Assembly (NCBI GenBank): GCA_902573725.1
Contig: CACGLE010000003.1
Location: forward strand, 1-64,000
Origin: an uncultured SAR116 cluster alpha proteobacterium
Lineage (GTDB): Bacteria; Pseudomonadota; Alphaproteobacteria; Puniceispirillales; Puniceispirillaceae
Direction: 5' to 3'
DNA length: 64,000 bases
In this document: positions 36,642-53,789 of the stretch, in pieces
How the letters are laid out: each line of letters starts with the position of its first letter
Position numbering within the stretch: position 1 is the first letter of the stretch
The notes under the pieces: model-generated
The model's database searches: none
The model's input: only the letters and a program-made list of their open reading frames with translations
Told to the model about the DNA's origin: nothing
Translations under genes and position numbers: made by a program

Positions 36642-37046
36642 TTATACTTTTTCTTCCTTAAAATGTTTATCTGCAATCCAATTGATTAAGTTGATTTCTT
36701 GTTTTTCGTGAAGAGAGACATAAGTAAAAATCATATTTGTTACATTAGTGACTAATTCTTTAGGATAAGGCAAATATGTAAGTTCTTGCCTTCCAAAAGA
36801 GGGACTTGCCGTCCCAAGTTGCCAATTTGTCTCAATCCTTGTATTTACAAGTTTGAGCGTTGGACCTCCCGTTTTAGACTCTATTTCATTTGGAAAATCA
36901 GATAGTTTTAAATAGGCCATTTTATCATTTGATTGCGTGAATCCATCTATAAATTCAGTTGATAATAGCAATATATCTTTCTTTATATCATTCTCAGACA
37001 TGTGAGAATGCAAGAACCCATCATGCATATGGATATTTGATAACAT
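36642..37046 (-). CDS. hypothetical protein, apparently co-transcribed with the ureohydrolase
   Basis: Intact 134-aa ORF 21 nt downstream of the ureohydrolase stop, same strand. Confidence 0.55.
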   Translation of the reverse strand: MLSNIHMHDGFLHSHMSENDIKKDILLLSTEFIDGFTQSNDKMAYLKLSDFPNEIESKTGGPTLKLVNTRIETNWQLGTASPSFGRQELTYLPYPKELVTNVTNMIFTYVSLHEKQEINLINWIADKHFKEEKV

Positions 37047-37067: not shown

Positions 37068-38300
37068 TCAATCGATATTAGACCACCTGGTTCCTTCAAA
37101 CTCTCCAGCAGGAATTTCAACAGGTTTATCAATATGTTTACGATGCTTGCCGAGGCTCCCAGAAACGGTCATTGCTCCAAGAACCTCAACGATAACTCGG
37201 GTACCCATAAGGGCGGTGATTTCAGATTGGTCATATGGCGGTGACACCTCTACTAATTCCATTCCACAAATACCTTCAGCTGCGACACCAGCAACAAGTT
37301 GCAATGCCTCTCGTGGGAGAAAACCTCCAGGCTCAGGCCAACCTGTACCAGGAACAAATCCGCAGTCTATGCTATCAATGTCAAACGACATATATACCAT
37401 GTCCGTATCTTTCCAGGCCAGTTCAAGAGCTATTTCTATAGTTTTCTCAATACCTAATTTTTCCACATCACTCATGGTTAAAATATTAGTATTACGCTCT
37501 CTTGCAACTTCCACTGCCTCCCTTGGTACCTGCCAACCACCAATTCCTACTTGAACCAGGTTTTCTGGTTTAACATTATCTAAATTTGTTGCGTGAAACC
37601 AAGGGGTTGTATGCATACGCTCATCGAGGTCTTTTTCCTGGATATCAGCATGTCGGTCAAAGTGAATTATTCCAATCCTCTTCGATGTGCATTCTGCAAT
37701 GCCTCGAACAGTTGGAAATCCGATTGAGTGGTCCCCTCCAAGGATAATTGGAAGTGAACCACTTGAAAAAACGTGAGAGCAAGCCCGCGAAATTTGGTCA
37801 AAAGTTTTCTCTATATTTGCAGGTATCGTAAAAATATCTCCTGCATCACATAATGTCATCTGCTCTCGGAGATCTACTGCCATTTCATAGTTATATGGGG
37901 TATACAAAGCAGAAATTTTTCGAATTCCTTGAGGGCCAAATCTCGTACCTGGTCGGTAGGTGGTTCCTCCATCGAAAGGCGCGCCAAGTATTGTAGCATC
38001 ATAGTTTTTTACATCATTTACATTTTCGGCATATGGCGCTTTCAAAAAGGTATTTATTCCAGCGAAATGTGGTAATTCTCCTCGAGAGAAAGTCGGGATA
38101 CTTTTATCTTCAATGCTGTCTGCACCAGTTAGACCCATCTTCAAAGCCCATGATTTTTCTTCATCAAGCCTATTTTTGGGAATTTTTCCTTCTTCTTTTG
38201 CAGATTTCCATCCTTGAAGTTCATCTAAATTGGGGTGATGAAACCTTTTTTCAATTTTGCTTTTAAAATCCAAAACTCTTCTTATATCGTCACTCGACAT
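37068..38300 (-). CDS. ureohydrolase (agmatinase/arginase) family protein, possibly of guanidine-hydrolase type
   Basis: Metal motifs GGDHS, HFDRHADIQ, SFDIDSID; about 95-aa N-terminal extension; VPGTGWPEPGG. Confidence 0.88.
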   Translation of the reverse strand: MSSDDIRRVLDFKSKIEKRFHHPNLDELQGWKSAKEEGKIPKNRLDEEKSWALKMGLTGADSIEDKSIPTFSRGELPHFAGINTFLKAPYAENVNDVKNYDATILGAPFDGGTTYRPGTRFGPQGIRKISALYTPYNYEMAVDLREQMTLCDAGDIFTIPANIEKTFDQISRACSHVFSSGSLPIILGGDHSIGFPTVRGIAECTSKRIGIIHFDRHADIQEKDLDERMHTTPWFHATNLDNVKPENLVQVGIGGWQVPREAVEVARERNTNILTMSDVEKLGIEKTIEIALELAWKDTDMVYMSFDIDSIDCGFVPGTGWPEPGGFLPREALQLVAGVAAEGICGMELVEVSPPYDQSEITALMGTRVIVEVLGAMTVSGSLGKHRKHIDKPVEIPAGEFEGTRWSNID

Positions 38301-38471: not shown

Positions 38472-39944
38472 ATGTTTTCCTCCTCCACTTCAAACGAGCT
38501 AAATGATAAAACAGCTACTGAACTTCTCGACTTAATTAACAAACGAGAGATAGGCTGTGTTGAGTTAATAAATAGTTGCATAAACCGTTATGAGAAAATA
38601 AATCATTCCATAAATGCAATTGTTGAGACAAACTTCGATGAGGCTATAAAAATTTGCGAAACACTAGATAGTAATTCTAGCAAAAAAACAAATGGAACAA
38701 CTAGCCTCCCATTACCTATTGGCATAAAAGATTTGAACGATGTAAAGGGTCTAAAAACATCATACGGGTCACCACTTTTTAAAGATAACGTCGCTGAGGA
38801 AGATGATGATGTTGTTAGTAGTTTAAGAAGATTTTCTGCTATAATTTTCGGGAAAACTAATGTACCAGAGCACGGGTTTGGCGCCACAACAACTAATCCG
38901 TTACAAGGCAGCACAGGTAACCCATTCAATCCAGATTTAAGTGCTGGTGCATCAACGGGCGGAGGGGCTGCCGCAGTGGCATCTGGTATTGTTCCACTTG
39001 CCACAGGTTCTGATTTTGCTGGATCGTTAAGAACGCCAGCAGGTTTTTGCGGTATCGCTGGAATGAGGCCGTCTAATGGCATAGTCTCAACTAATAGAAG
39101 GTCAAATATGTGGTCACCCTTCGATGTAGAAGGGCCTATGGGTAGAACAGCAGCCGATTGTAAATTATTACTCGCAAGGATGGCGAAGTCGCATCCCCTA
39201 GATCCATTCTCAAAAGACCCCGATGGTTCACTCTTTTTCCCAGCAAAAGAAATAGATTTAAAGAAATTAAAAGTCGCAATATCTCATGACCTTGGGTTCG
39301 CGGTGATGTCAAACTCCTACAAGGATACGTTTTATTCGAAGTTTGCTCTTTTCGAAGAACTTTTTGAACAAACAAACAGAGAGCATATGGATTTATCTAA
39401 AGCTGAAACTACGTTTATGACGTTACGAAGCATTGGATTTCTAGGCGATTTTGGATTGATGGAAAAAGATTTTGGTGATGAATTGGGTGAGGTGATCATA
39501 AAAGAGCTTGAGATTGCCAGACAACTCTCTTCAGAGGATGTTGCTCAATCTTTTTTGGATCATAGTGAAATAGTTCGCAAAAGTAATAAATTTTTTGAAA
39601 CTTATGACCTTCTCATTACACCTGCTGCTTCTGTCACTCCTTTTCCGCATGAAATAGAATACCCATCGCATATCGATGAAGTATTTTATAAGGGTTACTT
39701 AGACTGGGAAGCTATCAGCTGGGGGATTACGTTAACACAGTGTCCATCTGTAGTCATTAATTGCGGTGTAGATACAAACAGGATGCCGTTTGGCATTCAG
39801 ATTATAGCTAAACAAAATAGGGATGCGTTTTTACTTGATGCTGCGCACTCCATTGAAAAGGCATTTTTGGGGATTGATGAATTATCCAGACCATTCCCAA
39901 ATTTGGAAAAGTTGGCTGCCATGAATGCGTTAACTTTAACTTAA
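38472..39944 (+). CDS. amidase (amidase signature family)
   Basis: PLPIGIKDLNDVKG, GASTGGGAAAVASGIVPLATGSDFAGSLRTPAGFCG. Confidence 0.9.
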   Translation: MFSSSTSNELNDKTATELLDLINKREIGCVELINSCINRYEKINHSINAIVETNFDEAIKICETLDSNSSKKTNGTTSLPLPIGIKDLNDVKGLKTSYGSPLFKDNVAEEDDDVVSSLRRFSAIIFGKTNVPEHGFGATTTNPLQGSTGNPFNPDLSAGASTGGGAAAVASGIVPLATGSDFAGSLRTPAGFCGIAGMRPSNGIVSTNRRSNMWSPFDVEGPMGRTAADCKLLLARMAKSHPLDPFSKDPDGSLFFPAKEIDLKKLKVAISHDLGFAVMSNSYKDTFYSKFALFEELFEQTNREHMDLSKAETTFMTLRSIGFLGDFGLMEKDFGDELGEVIIKELEIARQLSSEDVAQSFLDHSEIVRKSNKFFETYDLLITPAASVTPFPHEIEYPSHIDEVFYKGYLDWEAISWGITLTQCPSVVINCGVDTNRMPFGIQIIAKQNRDAFLLDAAHSIEKAFLGIDELSRPFPNLEKLAAMNALTLT

Positions 39945-39963: not shown

Positions 39964-40782
39964 ATGTTGAGAATTATATTAGTAGGTATCATAGCTCTGC
40001 TATTACCTTTTAAAATGGTTACTGCAGATACATTGAGTGATGTAAAATCAAGCGGTAAACTAATATTTGGCCTCGAAGCAGGTTATAAACCATTTGAGTT
40101 TTTAGATGAAAACAATAAGTTAGTCGGTTATGACATCGATGTTGGATCTGAAATAGGTAAGCGCCTTGGTGGTGTTGAACCAACACCAAAAGACACAAAT
40201 TGGTCTACAGTTATTCAATCGCTTTATAATGGAGATTTCAATCTTATTTTGGGTGGCATGACTGCAACAGAAGAAAGATATAAGCGCGTGAACTTTTCCT
40301 ACCCGTATATGGATGCAAGTTCAGGTTTATTGGTAATGAAGGATTCAGGCATAACCTCACCATCAATGCTCGGTGGAAAAACTGTTTCTGCAGGTGCTGG
40401 TACACCCCAAATCAATCAGCTAAATCTTGCAGCCAAGGAACATGGCATTAGTTATAATGGTGATATCAAAACCTATGATAAAGACGAAGTTGCCTATGCT
40501 GCAATGCGTTCAGGAAGGTTAGACGCATATGCTTCTACCTTAGTAAGCTTACTAGCCTTTGCTCAAACTAGTGATGATTTTACAGTTATTCCATTTACTT
40601 CAAACATGTGGAAAGCTGAATATACTGCTATGGCATTCCGTAAAGAAGACGAGTCATTTAGGTCTGCAATAAACCAAATTATCGTAGATATGAAAAATGA
40701 TGGAACATTAGCTTCTCTTCAAGAGAAGTGGTTTGGTCAATCATTTGTTGACTTACTTCCAAATGAGGCTCCTACTTGGTAA
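39964..40782 (+). CDS. amino-acid ABC transporter substrate-binding protein
   Basis: SBP_bac_3 motifs: LIFGLEAGYKPFEFLDENNKLVGYDIDVGSEIG. Confidence 0.92.
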   Translation: MLRIILVGIIALLLPFKMVTADTLSDVKSSGKLIFGLEAGYKPFEFLDENNKLVGYDIDVGSEIGKRLGGVEPTPKDTNWSTVIQSLYNGDFNLILGGMTATEERYKRVNFSYPYMDASSGLLVMKDSGITSPSMLGGKTVSAGAGTPQINQLNLAAKEHGISYNGDIKTYDKDEVAYAAMRSGRLDAYASTLVSLLAFAQTSDDFTVIPFTSNMWKAEYTAMAFRKEDESFRSAINQIIVDMKNDGTLASLQEKWFGQSFVDLLPNEAPTW

Positions 40783-40810
40783 GCCAAATTTAAGAAGTGA
40801 AACTTAATAA

Positions 40811-41488
40811 ATGGATTTCATTTTTATAATAGACCAAATGCCCCGGCTTTTGCCGGGGCTAATGCTTACGATAGAATTAAGTCTTCTTGGCTTTTTAATT
40901 GCCACGATTATTGGAGTTCCTCTAGGTATATTAAGAGCGTATAAAATTCCTTTCTTTTTATCCTGGGTTATAGACTTTTATGTATTTGTTGTTCGTGGCA
41001 CTCCAATTTTAGTTCAAATATACGCAGCCTATTTTCTACTTCCTATTTTTGGAATTAAGATATCACCTTTCTGGATCGGGATTGTGGCACTCTCTTTTAA
41101 TAGTGCAGGATATCAAATAGAAATAGCAAGAGCTGCTATACTTTCAATGGATGATGGACAATATGAAGGAGCTTTCGCTCTTGGTCTTGCTAAATCCTAT
41201 ACTCTATTTTTCATCATATTACCGCAGGCAGTTATTAGAATGCTTCCACCTATGGCGAATGAAATGTCAAACTTGATAAAGGCTTCTTCGGTTTTATCTG
41301 TTATAACCGTTTTTGAGCTCCATAAGGCTGCAAACGCAATCATCTCAGATAGCTTTAAATTTTTGGAGATGTTGTTTGCACAAGCGGTTTTATACGTGGC
41401 TTTTGTGGTTGCTATGACCCAATTGTCTATTTATCTCGAGAAAAAAATAGGCGCTAACCTTCAGATAAAAAATCTTTCACAACGTTAA
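40811..41488 (+). CDS. polar amino-acid ABC transporter permease
   Basis: VVRGTPILVQIYAAYFLLP, EGAFALGLAKSYTLFFIILPQAVIRMLPPMANE. Confidence 0.92.
   Translation: MDFIFIIDQMPRLLPGLMLTIELSLLGFLIATIIGVPLGILRAYKIPFFLSWVIDFYVFVVRGTPILVQIYAAYFLLPIFGIKISPFWIGIVALSFNSAGYQIEIARAAILSMDDGQYEGAFALGLAKSYTLFFIILPQAVIRMLPPMANEMSNLIKASSVLSVITVFELHKAANAIISDSFKFLEMLFAQAVLYVAFVVAMTQLSIYLEKKIGANLQIKNLSQR
40840..40859 (+). other. 8-bp perfect GC hairpin within the 5' end of the permease CDS
   Basis: GCCCCGGC-TTTT-GCCGGGGC. Confidence 0.8.
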
Positions 41489-41508
41489 CGTTTTAATTAG
41501 GAGTAAAA

Positions 41509-42159
41509 ATGGCATTAGATTTAGCTTTCATGTTGCAAATATTGCCAGATATGATAGCGGCCTTTTGGCTCACAATTAAAATAAGTCTGATAACGGTTGT
41601 TGCCTCGGTAATAGCGGGGATTCTATTAACAGCAATTAGAATGATGGGCGGAAAAATTTCTAGATATTCTATAATTGCATTTGTGGAGTTTACGCGAGGA
41701 GCACCACCCCTAGTTCATATATCTATTATTTATTTTCTGCTCCCTGAATTTGGTATTGTTTTCAACGAATTTTGGACCGGTGTTATTGCTCTTTCACTTA
41801 TTGGGGCAGGTTATTCTGCTGAGATTTTCAGGGGTGCAATTGACTCGATCGGTTCATCGCAAGTAGATGCTTCAAAAGCAATAGGCTTGTCTCGCATTCA
41901 AACTTTTAGACTAGTTCTAATACCGCAAGCATTGCGTTTGAGTCTCCCGCCTTTGACAAATGAATTGGCTAATGTGATCAAGGCTTCTTCTTTATTATCA
42001 GTTATCTCAGTAAACGAATTGACCAAAGTTGCAAACGACCTAATTTTTGTTCATTTTGTTGTAATCGAGGTTCTAATTGAACTTACTTGTCTGTATCTCA
42101 TCATTGTAGGTTTTTTAATGTTTCTATCAAAATATATGGAAGCGAAATTTAAATATTGA
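41509..42159 (+). CDS. polar amino-acid ABC transporter permease (second)
   Basis: FTRGAPPLVHISIIYFLLPEFG, DASKAIGLSRIQTFRLVLIPQALRLSLPPLTNELAN. Confidence 0.92.
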   Translation: MALDLAFMLQILPDMIAAFWLTIKISLITVVASVIAGILLTAIRMMGGKISRYSIIAFVEFTRGAPPLVHISIIYFLLPEFGIVFNEFWTGVIALSLIGAGYSAEIFRGAIDSIGSSQVDASKAIGLSRIQTFRLVLIPQALRLSLPPLTNELANVIKASSLLSVISVNELTKVANDLIFVHFVVIEVLIELTCLYLIIVGFLMFLSKYMEAKFKY

Positions 42160-42177
42160 TGCTTCGTAGTGATCTTT

Positions 42178-43398
42178 ATGACAGAAACTAATGTTACACA
42201 ATTTGGAAATTCTTTTAGAGTTGCAAGTTACTTTGACAAAGCCTCCAAAGGTGCAAGTTTATGTTTATGGGTAAAAACAGGTGCTTGTTGTGATCCAGAA
42301 AATAAAGAAGGCCTGTCACACTTGCTCGAACATACTCTTTTTGGTCTTCGAAAATCGGCAAATATATCTCATATTTATTCGTCAATTATCAACAGGCAGT
42401 TAAACATAAAAGCATTTACCAAGGCTGAACATACCGCATTTATTATTAAGTCAGTAGATAAGTTCGATCTTAAAAAATGCATAGATATTTTATGGGAGAT
42501 TTATTCTGGAAGATGGTTATCGGATGAGGCCCTTTATGATGCCAAAATAGATATCAGTAAGGAAATAGACGAATTATCTAAAGACCCTGTGAAAATCTTA
42601 TTTGAGGTTTTAAATTCTGTATGTTTTCCTTCTCAGTCCTATGGAAGAAGAATTACAGGTACGAAAGAAACAATCCATAGAATTAAAGTTGATGACCTAG
42701 TTTCCTTTCAAAAGCACTTCTATGTCCCTGAACACAGTTTGATTTGTGCTTGTGGAAACATTGAACATCAGCAACTTGTAGATTTTACAGAAGCAAAATT
42801 TTCTTCATTTCCAAAAAATATGAACTTTGCTTTACCATCTTCAAATTGGTTTGGTGGCATCAGAAAAATCAAGTCTGTCGATAAAGAAACGCGTCTAGCA
42901 TGTGCTATTCCTTTTGAGACAAAAGGGTCAGAACAATACTATTTTTATTGGATTTTATCATATTTACTCTCGAAAAAAACTAATAACGTAATACTTACAG
43001 CCTTAAAAAGAGAACATATTAGTTGCGATGCTTTAAATGTTTACCCTGAGTTTTTATCACATTTTAGTAGAATGCAGATTTATTTAAATACATCTGACGT
43101 AAATATTAATGCCATTATGAAAATAATAATGGATGAGCTCTCTTTGATCACTTTTTCAAAAGCAGAGTATCTTTTAAAAAATGTGGGAGATTTGGAGATC
43201 ACTAGTTTTCTTAAATTATTCAAATTAAAAAATAGAAATATAGAGCATTTAGCGATGGGATTAGGAGAGTACAATTTATTTCCCTCTGAAATTCCTTTTC
43301 CAAAATCAATAGACGATATTAAAGGTAATTTAGATCTTATTCTAGAAAATTTTTACCAAAAAAATAAAATAGCAATTGCTTATTCTGTGGCGTATTGA
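42178..43398 (+). CDS. M16 family metallopeptidase homologue
   Basis: HLLEHTLFGL (HxxEH) plus downstream Glu (ISKEIDEL). Confidence 0.8.
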   Translation: MTETNVTQFGNSFRVASYFDKASKGASLCLWVKTGACCDPENKEGLSHLLEHTLFGLRKSANISHIYSSIINRQLNIKAFTKAEHTAFIIKSVDKFDLKKCIDILWEIYSGRWLSDEALYDAKIDISKEIDELSKDPVKILFEVLNSVCFPSQSYGRRITGTKETIHRIKVDDLVSFQKHFYVPEHSLICACGNIEHQQLVDFTEAKFSSFPKNMNFALPSSNWFGGIRKIKSVDKETRLACAIPFETKGSEQYYFYWILSYLLSKKTNNVILTALKREHISCDALNVYPEFLSHFSRMQIYLNTSDVNINAIMKIIMDELSLITFSKAEYLLKNVGDLEITSFLKLFKLKNRNIEHLAMGLGEYNLFPSEIPFPKSIDDIKGNLDLILENFYQKNKIAIAYSVAY

Positions 43399-43437: not shown

Positions 43438-45387
43438 ATGTCAGAGCATGAAAAAAATATCGGATTCCTTTGGCCATGTGATGGATTAAATGACAGTGAA
43501 TATTGGAAATTTTTGCCTAAAGATGTCGGGTGGCTTACCGCACGGTATGGCGCTAATACCGCCACTGAAGAATTAACAGATAAAAATTTGGAACAGTATG
43601 CCTCTCTTGATACATTACAAAAAGCTATAGATATTTTTAAAGCTGTAAATTTAGATGCGATAGCCTGTGGAGACCATGCCGCTAGTTTCATACTTGGTAA
43701 GGACCATGAGGAATACTTAATAGAAAAACTTCAAAAACAATCTGGTTGCCCTGTAACGTTTCCTAGTAGGTCGATTGTAAGATTAATCAAAAATAAAAAC
43801 TTTAAAGATATATTATTAGTTTCACCTTATTCCAGAGAAATCACTGAGAAATTCGAGCGCTATCTCGCTGATTATAATATAAAGACGGTTGCTTCTGTTT
43901 CTTTGGAAGCCACAGACGAAGTTCAAATAAATTCGTTATCTTCTTCAAGTCTTCCTAAGTTAATCATTGATTTTGTTAAAAATAATAAGAGAGCTGAATT
44001 GCTGGTAATAGCGGGTGGCGGGATTTCTTTTTCTGATGAAATTTCAAAAGTCGAAACAATTTTAAATATCCCGATTTTAACTGCTGTTGGTGCCTTAGTA
44101 AAAGATGCAATAGAATTAATAGGGCAAGATTATAAAAAAGCGGGTATGGGGCGGATATTTTTAGAACAAAAAAGTGGTCAGCTTAAAAAAATTAAAGAAA
44201 GATTGTCATCTGGCACTAAAAACTTTTCTTTGACAGAAAAACCGCCCATCTTTGAATCTGGTGTAGGCGCAGTGTTGGTTGACGATAAAAATAATACTTA
44301 TTTTGATTTTGCTTCTGGGTCTGGGACTACAGCACTAGGCCATGGCAATAATGGTCTTATAGATGCGGTACAACAACAATTGCAGGCGGGTATTTTTCAT
44401 ATAGGACCACATTTTAATACAGGCATTCAAGCTGACTTTTATTCTGAATTATCCTCATTTTTGCCCCCTGAATTATCAAGATTTCACCCATCAATTAGTG
44501 GCTCAGAAGCAGCAGAGATTGCTATAAAAAGCGCAATGCATTTTACAGGTGCTAAGCAATTTTTGGGTTTTTCTGGTGGCTATCATGGACGTACATTAGG
44601 AGCACTTGCAGTATCTGGTGAGAAAGGTAAAAATGCTTCTTTAGGACCGTTCCACCCAAAGGCTCACATTCTGCCCTTCCCGGAAAAGAATAACGGTTTG
44701 TCTGAAACTTTAGAAAAATATGATGAGAAGCAGTTAGCCGGAGTAATAATAGAGCCAATTCAAGCTACGGCGGGTCTTAAATTCGCAGATAAACAAAGCT
44801 TGATTAAACTCAGAGAATTTACAACTAAAAATAAAATCCCTCTAATCTTTGATGAAACTTTCACCGGTTTTTGTCGAACTGGTAAGATGTTTGGTTATGA
44901 GCATTTTGATGTAACACCAGATATAATCATACTTGGAAAAGCAATTTCTGCTGGTTTCCCTGCAGGACTGGTTATATCAACTGAGGAGATTCTCACATTC
45001 TGGGAGAAAGGTACTCAATCTTCTACTTTTCAGCTTAATCCAGTTGCCGCTGCTGCCTCACTTTTTTTCCTTGACCAAATTAAAAAGCATGGATTGCTAA
45101 ATAATATTAGCCTGCAGTCTGAGCAATTTTATAACTTATTAAAGGACTTTGTAGATTTCAAAAATGTAACTGATGTGAGGGGCATTGGAAGTTTTTGGGT
45201 TATAGAATTCTCATCGTCAGATTTAAATAAAAATGCTCGTAAAATGGCACTGCAAAATGGTTTGATAACATGGGAATGTGGTGAATTTGGTGAATGTTTA
45301 GGCTTGGTGCCTCCATTGAATATGGAGCCATATATAATTGAACGCGCATGTAGCATTTTAAGAAAAAGTATTTTGGAAATATCTTGA
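43438..45387 (+). CDS. fusion: N-terminal Asp/Glu racemase/maleate isomerase-like domain + C-terminal class III aminotransferase
   Basis: N-terminus: AIACGDHAASFILG, GCPVTFPSRSIVRLIK, LLVSPYSREITEKFERYL; C-terminus: SGSEAAEIAIKSAMHFTGAKQFLGFSGGYHGRTLGALAVSG, DIIILGKAISAG (PLP Lys). Confidence 0.88.
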   Translation: MSEHEKNIGFLWPCDGLNDSEYWKFLPKDVGWLTARYGANTATEELTDKNLEQYASLDTLQKAIDIFKAVNLDAIACGDHAASFILGKDHEEYLIEKLQKQSGCPVTFPSRSIVRLIKNKNFKDILLVSPYSREITEKFERYLADYNIKTVASVSLEATDEVQINSLSSSSLPKLIIDFVKNNKRAELLVIAGGGISFSDEISKVETILNIPILTAVGALVKDAIELIGQDYKKAGMGRIFLEQKSGQLKKIKERLSSGTKNFSLTEKPPIFESGVGAVLVDDKNNTYFDFASGSGTTALGHGNNGLIDAVQQQLQAGIFHIGPHFNTGIQADFYSELSSFLPPELSRFHPSISGSEAAEIAIKSAMHFTGAKQFLGFSGGYHGRTLGALAVSGEKGKNASLGPFHPKAHILPFPEKNNGLSETLEKYDEKQLAGVIIEPIQATAGLKFADKQSLIKLREFTTKNKIPLIFDETFTGFCRTGKMFGYEHFDVTPDIIILGKAISAGFPAGLVISTEEILTFWEKGTQSSTFQLNPVAAAASLFFLDQIKKHGLLNNISLQSEQFYNLLKDFVDFKNVTDVRGIGSFWVIEFSSSDLNKNARKMALQNGLITWECGEFGECLGLVPPLNMEPYIIERACSILRKSILEIS

Positions 45388-45433: not shown

Positions 45434-46639
45434 TTATGTTTTCAATTCCGGAAGTCTCCAAACAACAAACGAGGTTGCAATTAGAAAAAGAGTTGTGCCA
45501 GTAAGACAGGCTAGCACTCCACCTTGCTGGAAAAGCAAGCCTGATAAAAATGTACCAAATAGTCGACCAGCTGCATTTGCTGCGTAATAAAAACCGATAT
45601 CCTCAGCAGCCTTTTTGCTCCCAGCATAAGCAACAATCAAAAAGGAATGAAGAGAAGAATTAATCGCAAAGACAAATCCAAACAAAATAAGGCCAGATAG
45701 CAATAACAGTAAATCTGTTTTTGCCGACATGATACCTAGGAGAAAAAGGGAAACAAGCGCAAGTGATATAGACCACACTAATATACTTGTTGAAGAAACT
45801 GTTCTTTTTCCATTGTTAGTTACATATATGATATTGGGGGCAATCGCTTGCACGAGACCATAAAATACCGTCCAACCTGCAAGAAACCCTCCCACTTCCC
45901 AGAAATCCCATCCATTTGTATAAAGAAAAATGGGTATAGCTACTACGAACCAAATATCCCGTCCGCCAAACAAGAAAATCCTAGCTAATGCAATTTTATT
46001 TACTTCCGGTGATTTACTAAAAAGCTCTTTTATTCGTCCTGATGGCCTACTTGTACCCAAATTTTTTGGCAGAAGGAAAGAAACTAAAAGAAGAACTAGT
46101 CCAAGAGACCCTGCCATAACCCACAGGCTATTTTGAAAACCAAATTTTGTCAGTAATATTCCGCCTAGAAAAAACCCTATTCCTTTCATTGCATTTTTGG
46201 ATCCTGTGAACCAGGAAACCCAGTAAAAAAGAACTTGCCTTCCGTCAACTTCCATGCTCTTGATTGCAGATTTTGAAGCCGTTTTAGTAAAATCTTTGGC
46301 AAGCCCCGAAATGCCTTGAGCTGCCAATACCCAAATAATTGATAGGATATAATCGAATGATGGGTCTAATAGTGAAAGGAAAATTAAACCTATAATTTGT
46401 AAGCTTAATCCTACTAATAACATTATGCGAATGCCAAAGCGGGTTGTAAGCCACCCACCCCCCAAATTTGCAACGACACCTGCAAATTCATAAAGGAGAA
46501 AAAGTAAAGCGAGCGTAAGTGGAGAAAATCCAAGTTTAAAAAAATAGAAAAGCACGAGCATCCTCAGGGCGCCATCTGACAAAGTGAAGCCTAAATAGGA
46601 CGAGGTAACTATAAAGTAATGACTGATTGATGCGTTCAT
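45434..46639 (-). CDS. arsJ: organoarsenical (1-arseno-3-phosphoglycerate) efflux MFS transporter ArsJ
   Basis: [82 protein letters not shown]; overlaps an upstream GAPDH gene by 4 nt. Confidence 0.87.
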
Positions 46640-47679
46640 TGCTCTTTGTCGATAACCATCTTTGCCAAATCTACCATTCGGCAGGCATATCCCATTTCAT
46701 TATCATACCAAGCATAGAGTTTTAGCATTGTTTCGTTAGTAACCAGTGTACTCTCTGCGTCAATAATGGCGCTTCGGGTATCATTTACGAAATCCGCTGA
46801 AACAAGAGCCCGACTCTCAAAACCGAGAATTCCACATAATTCGTTTTCTGCGGCATCCGCAAATAGCGAATTCACATACTCCCTAGTGGTAGATTGGCTA
46901 AGTTCAAATACAGCATCTGTCAAACTAGCATTAAGTACTGGTGCCCTTACTGCATGACCGTTGAGTTTTCCATCAAGCTCTGGATAAATTAATCCTATAG
47001 CACTTGCGCTACCAGTAGTAGTTGGGATAAGTGAGGTCATGCCTGAACGCGCACGACGTAAGTCATTATGAGGAGCATCAACCATCACATTTGTATTTGT
47101 CGGGTCATGTATCGTTGTAATTTGACCGTGGCGGATGCCAATTGTTTCATGCACAACTTTCACCATTGGCGCAAGGCAATTTGTAGTGCAGGAAGCGGCC
47201 GTGATAATTCCATTTTTTTTTGGATTATAGAGATGTTCGTTGATGCCATATACGATGTTTAGAGCATCTTCATCATATACAGGGGCTGAGACGATGACTT
47301 TCCTAACGCCTTTATCAAAGTATCCAGCTAATTTTTCTTTTGTACGGAATTTTCCCGTACAGTCAAAAACAATGCTACAACCAAAGTCCGCCCAATCTAT
47401 ATCTTCTGGCATATTGTACGAAGAGAAACTTAAGTTATGGTCATTTATAGTTATGCTATTCTCGTTTGAAGCGATATCTGCCTTCCATCTCCCATGAACG
47501 GTATCAAACTCTAAAAGGTGAGCTGTAGTTTCAGCTCCGCCGTTAATTTCATTTACATGAGTAATTTCAAGTTGCGTATTTGCATTGTTATCCCCAGTTA
47601 CCCGAGTGACGCCACCTAAAGCTGAACGAAGCACCAAACGCCCAATACGCCCCATTCCATTGATACCAATTTTAATCAT
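46636..47679 (-). CDS. ArsJ-associated glyceraldehyde-3-phosphate dehydrogenase
   Basis: [35 protein letters not shown] catalytic Cys, [18 protein letters not shown]; coupled to arsJ. Confidence 0.92.
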
Positions 47680-47912: not shown

Positions 47913-49172
47913 CTAATTATGGTTTGACATCTCAGAGATAAGTTCAAGAAGTTGTGTTAATGCTGTAGATAGAATTTTACCAGAAATATTGATAGGTGGA
48001 AGGACCATGACGCATTCTCCATTCATTCCTCCTCCATAAGTTAGTATTTTGGCTTTTTCCATTGTATCATTCTGTATCTGATTAGCTAAATCTGAGTTAT
48101 CAAATGTAATCGCGCATTGTGCTCCAACAAATCGTACATCTTTGACCGTTGTAATATTTCTTAAATCTTTTTTAAATTTCGAAAAACAGGGTTCTATTAT
48201 TTCATTTACGTGAGTGACTAAGTCTGTATCTTTAATCTCTTTGATGGTCGCACAGGCAGCGGCGCATGCAATTGGATTACCTTGAAACGTTGAAGTATGG
48301 GAACCAGCCCCCCATCTTTTAAGAAGGTCACCTTTTGCAATTACCGCAGAAAGCGGTAAAGAGGCTGATAGCCCTTTTCCTATCACAATAAGGTCAGGGG
48401 AAATATTCGAATATTGGTAAGAAAAATTCTTTCCAGAACGACCCATGCCTGACCAAATTTCATCAACTATTAATAGACTTTTATTTTTCTTAGCTATTTC
48501 TTCTAGGCCTTGAAGGAAGGCTGGGTAGGGACCCCAAACACCTGAAACTCCCTGAATGGGTTCTACTAAAATAGCTGCAATAGGCTGGTCGTGTTTAACG
48601 TAATGATTAAGTTGCCGCTCACATTTTTCAAGGCACATATCAACTTCGGTATTATCTCTGGGGTATTGGGAAAAACTAACAAAATCACCTATTTTCCCAA
48701 TAAAGGGCAGGCGTATTTTTTCAGAATGTGTAACACTTAGTGCTCCCAAGGTACGACCGTGGTATCCACCCTCAAAGGCTATAATACGCTCATTACCACT
48801 TAAAAAACGACTCAATTTTATAGCGGTTTCTATCGCTTCTGAACCAGAGTTCGCTAAATGTATTGAAATATCTTCTAAACCCAGAAAATGACTTAAAGAA
48901 GAATATAACTCACTTCGGAGGGGGGAGATCAAACGAGTTCCAGTATGAAAAATACCAGATTTCAAGGCCTCACTGATCGCAAATTTTTGAGAAGGATGAT
49001 TGTGACCCAAATTAGTGGTAGCTGAACCACAAACAAGATCCAGATATTTTTGATTGTCCTCTGTAAACAACCAAGGTCCTTCCCCTCTAACGAAAATTGG
49101 GGGTGTATCCGACAATCTAAAAGTATTAACCGCTGTGCTTTCAAATTTCTTTGTTAAGTATAGCTCTTTCAT
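47913..49172 (-). CDS. class III aminotransferase
   Basis: NSGSEAIETAIKLSRFLSGNERIIAFEGGYHGRTLGALSVTHS, PDLIVIGKGLSASLPLSAVI. Confidence 0.92.
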   Translation of the reverse strand: MKELYLTKKFESTAVNTFRLSDTPPIFVRGEGPWLFTEDNQKYLDLVCGSATTNLGHNHPSQKFAISEALKSGIFHTGTRLISPLRSELYSSLSHFLGLEDISIHLANSGSEAIETAIKLSRFLSGNERIIAFEGGYHGRTLGALSVTHSEKIRLPFIGKIGDFVSFSQYPRDNTEVDMCLEKCERQLNHYVKHDQPIAAILVEPIQGVSGVWGPYPAFLQGLEEIAKKNKSLLIVDEIWSGMGRSGKNFSYQYSNISPDLIVIGKGLSASLPLSAVIAKGDLLKRWGAGSHTSTFQGNPIACAAACATIKEIKDTDLVTHVNEIIEPCFSKFKKDLRNITTVKDVRFVGAQCAITFDNSDLANQIQNDTMEKAKILTYGGGMNGECVMVLPPINISGKILSTALTQLLELISEMSNHN

Positions 49173-51343: not shown

Positions 51344-52717
51344 TTATGAAAAAACTTCTTTAACGTTAATTGTTGTTGTAAATTCACTTAAACCCCAAGC
51401 TCCTCCTTCTCTACCTAACCCTGCTTCCTTAAAACCACCGGTCGGTGCTTGGGCCCCTTGAATACCAGTATTATTCAATCCAATTGAACCATAATTCAAT
51501 GAGGTAATAAATTGATTTAAAAAGGTATGATCTTGTGAGTATGCATACAGCACAAGAGGTTGTTGATTATTATGTAGTAGCTTTTTTAAACTTTTTCTAT
51601 CATCAAAAACACAGATCCCCAGCAAAGGTGCAAAAATTTCATGCTCCATAAAAAGATCAGGTTCTTCACATAAATAAGCTGCTGGATTATAAAAGAAGCC
51701 ATCGCCAACATGTTTTTGATTTTTGTTTATAATGCATCTAGCTCCAGACTGGTTCAATCTTTCTTCAAATGAATAGAGATCTTCTAGTGCTTTTTTTGTA
51801 CGAATAGGGCCCATTAGTGCACTTGCATATTTATCCGTAGGCAATGACTCTATTTCGAAAAATTTGCTTTCAATTTTTTCAATAACATCATTTGCGATAT
51901 CTTTTTCTAAAAAAAGAATGTTTTGAGCAGAGCAGGCTTGACCTGCGGCTTTTGTTTTTCTGATAACGAGATCTGTTACAGCTTTTTCAATATCTGCATC
52001 TGAAAATATAATGAATGGATTTATTCCACCAAGTTCACCAACAAATCTTTTAAGTCCACTACCAGCATTTATAGAGAGAATTTTGCCCACTTCAGTCGAA
52101 CCGGTAAAGCTTATTACTCCAATCTCTCTAGAATGCATAAGTTGTTTAATGATTTCTCTATCTTTGGTTTTTAAAAAACACATTAGGTGGTCTAGTTTTT
52201 CCAAACCAATCACTTCTTCCAATTTCGATGCCGTTTTAATTCCTAATTCGGGAGGTTTAATAATTGCACCCGCACCAGAGCCAATACAATTTGCAATTTT
52301 GCGCGTAATCCCAGCCAGAGGGTCGTTGTAAGGTGTAATTAATAGACCAAGACCCAAGGGAACTGTATTTATCCAACGACCATCTTCTATCTCTTCTTTG
52401 AAATTAGCAGAGGAAAGTAAATCAGACATATAGATTAGAAAAGATTTAGCGTAATCAATTTCCGCTTTTGCCTCTGATTGCGTCTTTCCAACTTCTGCTA
52501 CAATTAACCCCTCAAATTCTTCGCGTGCTTTTTCAATAGCATTTGACAATAAGATTAATGCGCTGGCCCTATTTGAGGCCTCGGATAATTCTTTGAACGA
52601 TTTATCATTTAATCTTTCTAAAGCACTACTAAATTCAGAAACTGAAGTTTGTGTCCACGTGTCAAAAGCTTCGCCCGTGTTAGGAGATATGCATTTAAAT
52701 TGCTCTTTATTTTCCAT
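51344..52717 (-). CDS. aldehyde dehydrogenase family protein
   Basis: VPLGLGLLITPYNDPL, FTGSTEVGKIL, GELGG, AAGQACSAQNILFLEKDI catalytic Cys. Confidence 0.92.
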   Translation of the reverse strand: MENKEQFKCISPNTGEAFDTWTQTSVSEFSSALERLNDKSFKELSEASNRASALILLSNAIEKAREEFEGLIVAEVGKTQSEAKAEIDYAKSFLIYMSDLLSSANFKEEIEDGRWINTVPLGLGLLITPYNDPLAGITRKIANCIGSGAGAIIKPPELGIKTASKLEEVIGLEKLDHLMCFLKTKDREIIKQLMHSREIGVISFTGSTEVGKILSINAGSGLKRFVGELGGINPFIIFSDADIEKAVTDLVIRKTKAAGQACSAQNILFLEKDIANDVIEKIESKFFEIESLPTDKYASALMGPIRTKKALEDLYSFEERLNQSGARCIINKNQKHVGDGFFYNPAAYLCEEPDLFMEHEIFAPLLGICVFDDRKSLKKLLHNNQQPLVLYAYSQDHTFLNQFITSLNYGSIGLNNTGIQGAQAPTGGFKEAGLGREGGAWGLSEFTTTINVKEVFS

Positions 52718-53789
52718 TTAAAACATTATCCAATTGGTTAAATATAATTTTTAATTCAGACAATGGGCGGGCAAAACACAAACGGAAGTGGTCTTTATAA
52801 TCCTTTCCAAAGACATCACCCTTTAAAAGGAGCACCCCTATTTTTAATGCCTTGCTTTCCAACTCAGAGTAATTTTTTACTTTCGGAAAGTAATAAAATG
52901 AGCCAACTTGGGTAATAAAATCCCAATTTTGCGATTCCATGAACTTTTTTGTCTCTTTACGCTGTTCTATCAGAGATGGCATCTTTAAATTATTTTTTAC
53001 TGCATTCAATGCCATAATTTGAGCGGGCGCAGGGGCTGAGCTTAGAATTGTTTGATGAATATTTGTAAAATTTTCGGCTAATTTTTTTGGAACTAATGTT
53101 GCAGAGACCCTGGCACCTTGAAGAAGAAAATTTTTTGAAAACGAGTCAACAATAAATAATTTATCTGAAATCTCACAGGTTGCTTCGGACCACTTTTGTT
53201 CATCAAAAATAATTTTTGAGAAGCTTTGATCAATGACTATATAAAAGCCATATTTCTTTGAAAGTTGAACTAAACCTGAGAGTAAATGGCTGTCATAGAT
53301 TATACCTGCAGGATTGTTAGGGTTGCTGAATATAATAACTTTAAATTTATTTACCTTAAAACATTGCTCTATTTCGGTAAGATCTAAATTAAACCCGTTT
53401 GAAAAGTGAGTAGGCATTTCGATTGCCTGGCAGTCTGCAACTTTACAAATGTCAAAGTAACTTGGCCACGTAGGAGAGGGTATTAGAACGCGATCTTGAG
53501 AATTAGTTATAGTTTTAAGAATTGCAAATAAAGCAGATTTTGCTCCAGCTGAAATAATGACTTCATGTTCGTTATGATCCCAATTGTTAAAAAGGGTTGA
53601 TTTCGTGTGCTCGATTAATTCAGGCATGCCAGCAGGGTGGGTCAGTTTCCCCCAAGATGGATCAGTAGAAAGTGTATCATTATAACTAGGAAGATTAGGA
53701 GTCGATAAAGACCATAACTTTTTGTTATCAAGGCTTGCAGCTTTGATTTTTTCTCCAATTTCTAATGTGGGTGATCTTCTTAATTTCAT
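52707..53789 (-). CDS. class I/II aminotransferase
   Basis: ISAGAKSALFAI, FSNPNNPAGIIYD, DSFSKNFLLQGARVSA PLP Lys. Confidence 0.9.
   Translation of the reverse strand: MKLRRSPTLEIGEKIKAASLDNKKLWSLSTPNLPSYNDTLSTDPSWGKLTHPAGMPELIEHTKSTLFNNWDHNEHEVIISAGAKSALFAILKTITNSQDRVLIPSPTWPSYFDICKVADCQAIEMPTHFSNGFNLDLTEIEQCFKVNKFKVIIFSNPNNPAGIIYDSHLLSGLVQLSKKYGFYIVIDQSFSKIIFDEQKWSEATCEISDKLFIVDSFSKNFLLQGARVSATLVPKKLAENFTNIHQTILSSAPAPAQIMALNAVKNNLKMPSLIEQRKETKKFMESQNWDFITQVGSFYYFPKVKNYSELESKALKIGVLLLKGDVFGKDYKDHFRLCFARPLSELKIIFNQLDNVLNGK

Follow-up and report, generated by a model that had tools for sequence, protein, structure and literature searches.

A conserved SAR116 fusion of an arylmalonate decarboxylase-fold domain, lacking both catalytic cysteines, with a class III aminotransferase

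The fusion gene and its neighbourhood

The 64,000-nucleotide stretch of SAR116 DNA analysed here (the window) comes from an incomplete assembly (1.45 Mb in 75 contigs, 64% complete) and contains the following genes and domains:

37068-38300, minus strand: predicted GdmH-like guanidine hydrolase, divergently oriented (523 bits to 7esr/7oi1)
38472-39944, plus strand: amidase that opens the same-strand run ending with the fusion gene (Pfam, gene order)
39964-42159, plus strand: amino-acid-type ABC importer, a binding protein and two permeases with no adjoining ATPase gene (ORFs, Pfam, gene order)
39964-40782, plus strand: periplasmic binding protein of that importer
42169-43398, plus strand: M16 (insulinase-like) peptidase, directly upstream of the fusion in 12 of 12 loci (Pfam, gene order)
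43438-45387, plus strand: fusion gene, AMDase/maleate-isomerase-fold domain plus class III aminotransferase (ORF, Pfam, relatives)
43438-44172, plus strand: N-terminal domain of the fusion, residues 1-245 (PF17645, AF2 model)
44203-45384, plus strand: class III aminotransferase domain, about residues 256-649 (PF00202; best PDB sequence match 1vef)
47913-49172, minus strand: another class III aminotransferase, not fused, with 35% identity to the one in the fusion (Pfam, alignment)

The fusion gene is an uninterrupted frame of 649 amino acids from ATG to stop, and profile searches of its two halves gave matches above the Pfam cut-offs: PF17645 (Amdase) at residues 59-241 with about 64-67 bits (cut-off 25.9) and PF00202 (Aminotran_3) at residues 272-643 with 266 bits (cut-off 30.5). 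Reading frame and Pfam therefore agree with an earlier note on this DNA, which had described one ORF joining a racemase-like domain to a class III aminotransferase.

Could the frame be an artefact of assembly or sequencing that joined two genes? Twelve other SAR116 contigs (L039-L050, from a species-level genome collection) encode the identical arrangement, with full-length identities of 59-99% to the window's protein and an interdomain linker whose length varies by at most one residue, and because of these contigs we reject a frameshift or assembly join. One related contig does have a chimeric-looking end near the locus (L168:1-2238, genome G113), where the M16 gene continues into that of the unfused aminotransferase and the fusion fragment is inverted; even so, we consider the chance of an artefactual join negligible.

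Full-strength matches to the fusion were found in 13 of the 136 genomes of the order, and G113 is a fourteenth, with the C-terminal part of the fusion at its contig end; the spread covers three genera of one family. There were no full-strength relatives in 385 class-level or 399 phylum-level genomes or among the PLSDB plasmids, and a scan of 84,980 species with two N-terminal peptide patterns, whose reach is limited to fusions matching those patterns, gave matches in SAR116 only. In the fetched PF17645 loci no aminotransferase domain stands beside any other member of the family, and we found no published description of such a fusion in the open-access literature. Both halves are under purifying selection. 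When the window is compared with L042 and L043, dS of the aminotransferase half (44203-45384) is about 0.26-0.29 and that of the flanking genes and N-terminal domain about 0.8-1.8, which suggests recombination, its breakpoint lying close to the boundary between the domains.

Over the extent that their contigs cover, 12 loci keep one gene order: amidase, ABC importer, M16 peptidase and fusion on one strand, with the guanidine-hydrolase-like gene divergent from the amidase. Beyond the fusion, genes on the opposite strand encode the unfused class III enzyme and then a polyamine-type ABC ATPase, RidA, an aldehyde dehydrogenase and a class I/II PLP enzyme, along with permeases and other proteins. 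The hydrolase gene (37068-38300) and its surroundings to 58022 belong to a large, conserved SAR116 island, in which the GdmH-type hydrolase is accompanied by RidA, the aldehyde dehydrogenase, several PLP enzymes and a pair of ABC importers. The second-best curated match of the class I/II PLP enzyme (52707-53789, minus strand) is GntC, the hydroxyarginine cyclodehydratase, at 162 bits, below the cut-off of 415. Across SAR116 the M16 peptidase, with identities as low as 36%, diverges far faster than the adjoining importer genes (79-100%). In some genomes ArsJ and an arsenate-linked GAPDH (45434-47679 in the window) separate the fusion from the second class III enzyme; both are missing there in L044, L045 and L047-L050. 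A syntenic 134-aa protein with no Pfam or NCBIfam match, which could be an accessory protein, adjoins the guanidine hydrolase (36642-37046, minus strand).

At the sequence level the predicted guanidine hydrolase belongs to the 7esr/7oi1 ureohydrolase clade, and in alignment it keeps both Thr97 and Trp305 of the Synechocystis enzyme, the two residues that set guanidine specificity in GdmH (PMC11410670). Among the 136 genomes, the hydrolase, the importer's binding protein and the fusion co-occur in the same SAR116 members; in G112 the fusion is present and the hydrolase was not found, and its contig (L050) ends inside the importer. Urease is present in most genomes checked, whether or not they have the island. 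A search for a guanidine riboswitch found none, and the genes recognised beside the fusion include none for ectoine degradation.

The N-terminal domain and its two catalytic positions

Because the aminotransferase half of the full-length AF2 model is unreliable (mean pLDDT 64), we used a model of the N-terminal domain alone (pLDDT 80.5, pTM 0.84). Its top Foldseek matches are arylmalonate decarboxylase (AMDase; TM 0.80/0.85 to 3dg9) and maleate isomerase (TM 0.81/0.81 to 4fq5). AMDase (EC 4.1.1.76; PF17645; 3dg9, 2vlb, 3ixl) is its best match in both sequence and fold, and maleate cis-trans isomerase (4fq5, 2xed) shares the fold at a TM of about 0.8. The two-lobed fold and the family profile place the domain in the PF17645 branch of the Asp/Glu racemase superfamily, the superfamily to which it had been assigned from sequence. 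The superfamily scaffold residues D15, R36, P130, Y131, E206, P212 and G238 are retained. The best curated NCBIfam model is arylmalonate decarboxylase at 78.8 bits, well under its cut-off of 225; the second is EutA, the ectoine utilisation protein (TIGR02990), and with 44.5 bits against a cut-off of 318 that weak family match was rejected as an identity for the domain.

The codons that matter for catalysis are as follows, all on the plus strand:

43477-43479: Cys14 (in FLWPCDG), invariant in the fusion clade; the column is mostly Ser/Thr in homologues
43666-43668: Cys77, the presumed first cysteine of the earlier note, two residues before the catalytic position
43672-43677: Asp79-His80, aligned with the first catalytic Cys-Thr pair and unchanged throughout the fusion clade
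44014-44016: Gly193, which alignments place on the second catalytic Cys (AMDase Cys188)

The register at the two sites was tested by MAFFT alignment with 109 homologues, by profile-profile comparison with hhalign and against the published AMDase motif. MAFFT aligns the first site (..Y-G-C-T-S..) without gaps to C77-G78-D79-H80-A81, with Asp79 at the Cys position, and the second site (S-C-T) to A192-G193-G194, with Gly193 at the Cys position; hhalign gives the same register with 99.7% probability and no gaps over the first site. The AMDase motif LMGTSLSF is residues 72-79 (PMC4996985), and CGDHAASF of the fusion (residues 77-84) aligns to it. The second site reads LVIAGGGISF. In the AF2 model residues 74-77 form a strand and 80-86 a helix, and residue 79 lies at the strand-helix turn where the fold keeps its catalytic residue.

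The earlier note had taken the cysteine of AIACGDHAASF for the first catalytic residue and proposed a one-cysteine, AMDase-like enzyme using it. Only the phmmer alignment with the AMDase G74C/C188S mutant 3ixl puts Cys77 on the Cys74 position, and it needs a two-residue gap to do so, whereas three gapless alignment routes give Asp79; moreover, Cys77 lies within the strand, in a column that is Tyr, Phe or Leu in 97 of the 109 homologues. Asp79 and Gly193 occupy the two sites, so the domain is not a one-cysteine AMDase, and we regard a catalytic Cys77 as very improbable. Even if Cys77 were at the site the pattern would be the opposite of AMDase, because AMDase keeps Cys188 with a first-site Gly. 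The note was right that the second site has no Cys-Thr, with Gly193 replacing Cys188, and the alignments put no other cysteine there; Cys14 is invariant but lies in the N-terminal loop. As judged from the alignments, then, the N-terminal domain has a cysteine at neither catalytic position, and this conclusion is much firmer than the mechanism proposed below.

How far does the domain depart from its characterised relatives? AMDase requires Cys188 as proton donor together with Gly74 (PMC4996985), where the fusion has Gly193 and Asp79. Half of the AMDase dioxyanion hole (Thr75, Ser76, Tyr126, Gly189) is kept, as Y131 and G194, but Thr75/Ser76 are replaced by His80/Ala81; in addition the second-site Thr is Gly194 and a usually conserved Asn is Val217. 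Maleate isomerase uses two cysteines, neither of which the fusion has, although the Asp/Asn column of the N-terminal loop is kept (Asp15). AMDase is also free-standing, in contrast to the domain described here.

The 109 PF17645 domains sampled come nearly all from alphaproteobacterial genomes. Their site-1/site-2 pairs are 80 C/C, 9 G/C (the AMDase pattern), 5 C/G, 2 C/D, 1 C/A, 1 D/A and one incomplete pair; in the other 10, Cys and Asp are missing from both sites. Cys is absent from both sites in 11 of the 109, so loss of both cysteines is not unique to the fused clade; the Asp/Gly pair and fusion to an aminotransferase were each seen in none of them. Some individual sequences are of interest in their own right. 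Two free-standing proteins (L066:1234-1995 and L067:1210-1995) carry a single catalytic-site cysteine, at site 1 (QCCAPGTF), their site 2 being Gly (GGGM), and are natural counterparts of engineered C74-only AMDase variants. In L061 and L151 site 1 is Cys and site 2 is Asp (VPDTA), and L061 also has an N-terminal WP..E-YY motif resembling that of the fusion. The sole sampled non-fused member with Asp at site 1 is free-standing and has Ala at site 2 (L120:727-1533).

Across the 13 fusion sequences, whose N-terminal domains are 54-99% identical, C14, D15, C77, G78, D79, H80 and G193-G195 are invariant. The domain's dN/dS is 0.11-0.24 and we conclude from this that it is not decaying; it is probably still working.

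The aminotransferase half

Two codons of this half deserve mention, both placed by alignments and on the plus strand:

44938-44940: Lys501, the expected PLP Schiff-base lysine, invariant
45301-45303: Gly622, where ArgD-type enzymes have a carboxylate-binding Arg (VIRFLPPL)

The half aligns end to end with class III enzymes of the ArgD/GABA-AT group (1vef, PuuE 7jh3), and its PLP-binding residues are intact: E357, Y382, H383, D472, K501 and T530 are invariant in the fusion relatives, as expected of a class III aminotransferase. It differs from the ArgD/OAT/GABA-AT group in having Gly622 in place of the carboxylate-binding Arg, which the genome's own ArgD-like protein (L032) retains, and its scores fall well short of the cut-offs of all 25 NCBIfam models listed as its best matches. 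The unfused class III enzyme likewise has no such Arg. The missing Arg suggests that both enzymes probably do not handle the usual glutamate-type substrates; the fused half may well transaminate, but its use of glutamate/2-oxoglutarate is uncertain given Gly622.

Possible functions of the fusion

What might the two halves do together? The reading we prefer, tentatively and with a probability of roughly 0.4, is single-face acid/base catalysis by Asp79 combined with PLP chemistry in the C-terminal domain, in a pathway for a nitrogen-rich compound. The N-terminal half keeps the AMDase/maleate-isomerase fold and much of its scaffold, but both proton-transfer cysteines are replaced, which would leave Asp79, perhaps with the adjacent invariant His80, as the only acid/base. 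This half would act on a single face of a carbanion or enediolate stabilised by a carboxylate, and the step (decarboxylation, isomerisation or elimination) would be linked to the amino chemistry carried out by the C-terminal half, a PLP enzyme of class III aminotransferase fold. One-face catalysis has a precedent in AMDase, including its engineered C74-only forms (PMC12576825), and elimination has one in the superfamily in Alma1 (PMC8163506). Because the fusion travels with the guanidine hydrolase, we suppose that the island imports and degrades a nitrogen-rich, probably guanidino, compound.

The replacement of Thr and Ser in the carboxylate hole (His80, Ala81), of the second-site Thr (Gly194) and of a usually conserved Asn (Val217) tells against this reading and could mean that catalysis has been lost; Gly622 in the aminotransferase half and the negative riboswitch search count against it as well. 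The main competitor, which we think less probable though a real possibility, is a non-enzymatic N-terminal domain with a ligand-binding, regulatory or oligomerisation role, which would sense a carboxylate or hand it over to the aminotransferase half. It fits the replacement of both cysteines and of most proton-transfer and carboxylate-hole residues, as well as the long branch leading to the fused clade (1.78 substitutions per site). However, D79-H80, C14 and the GGG stretch are invariant down to 54% identity, so the replacements are not random; dN/dS is low, and a pure spacer would need no invariant pocket. Catalysis could instead have passed to a relocated cysteine (Cys14, possibly with Cys77) or to a metal site made of Cys14, Cys77, Asp15, Asp79 and His80, an idea that we consider rather unlikely. 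Cys14, Cys77 and Cys104 are invariant across the fusion clade, Cys14 belongs to the N-terminal loop, which in homologues forms part of the pocket wall (column 14, beside the Asp/Asn column and equivalent to AMDase Pro14/Pro15, is a pocket position by homology), and the ends of strands beta1 and beta3 should be close in this fold; against it, we know of no metal-dependent or relocated-cysteine member of the superfamily.

A more specific form of the Asp79 reading, which we offer as little more than speculation, is that the fusion splits guanidine off a larger guanidino compound. One half would deal with the amino group, the AMDase-fold half would use Asp79/His80 to abstract the proton alpha to a carboxylate, and guanidine would be eliminated and passed to the neighbouring GdmH and on to urease. 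The elimination would resemble the departure of DMS from DMSP in Alma1, a DMSP lyase of the aspartate racemase superfamily that acts on DMSP and, to our knowledge, is not fused to an aminotransferase; the likeness drawn here is one of reaction precedent. The natural source of guanidine has been described as an open question (PMC12186494), and if this reading were true such a source would have been identified.

The fusion is real and conserved, though it was partly misread at first, and it is probably a repurposed enzyme in a nitrogen-scavenging pathway. In that case an AMDase-fold domain would be working inside an aminotransferase protein without the superfamily-defining cysteines. Through the predicted guanidinase and the importer that accompany it in these ocean bacteria, the fusion points to an uncharacterised way in which nitrogen from guanidino compounds may become available to marine bacteria, and the island is a directly testable set of genes.
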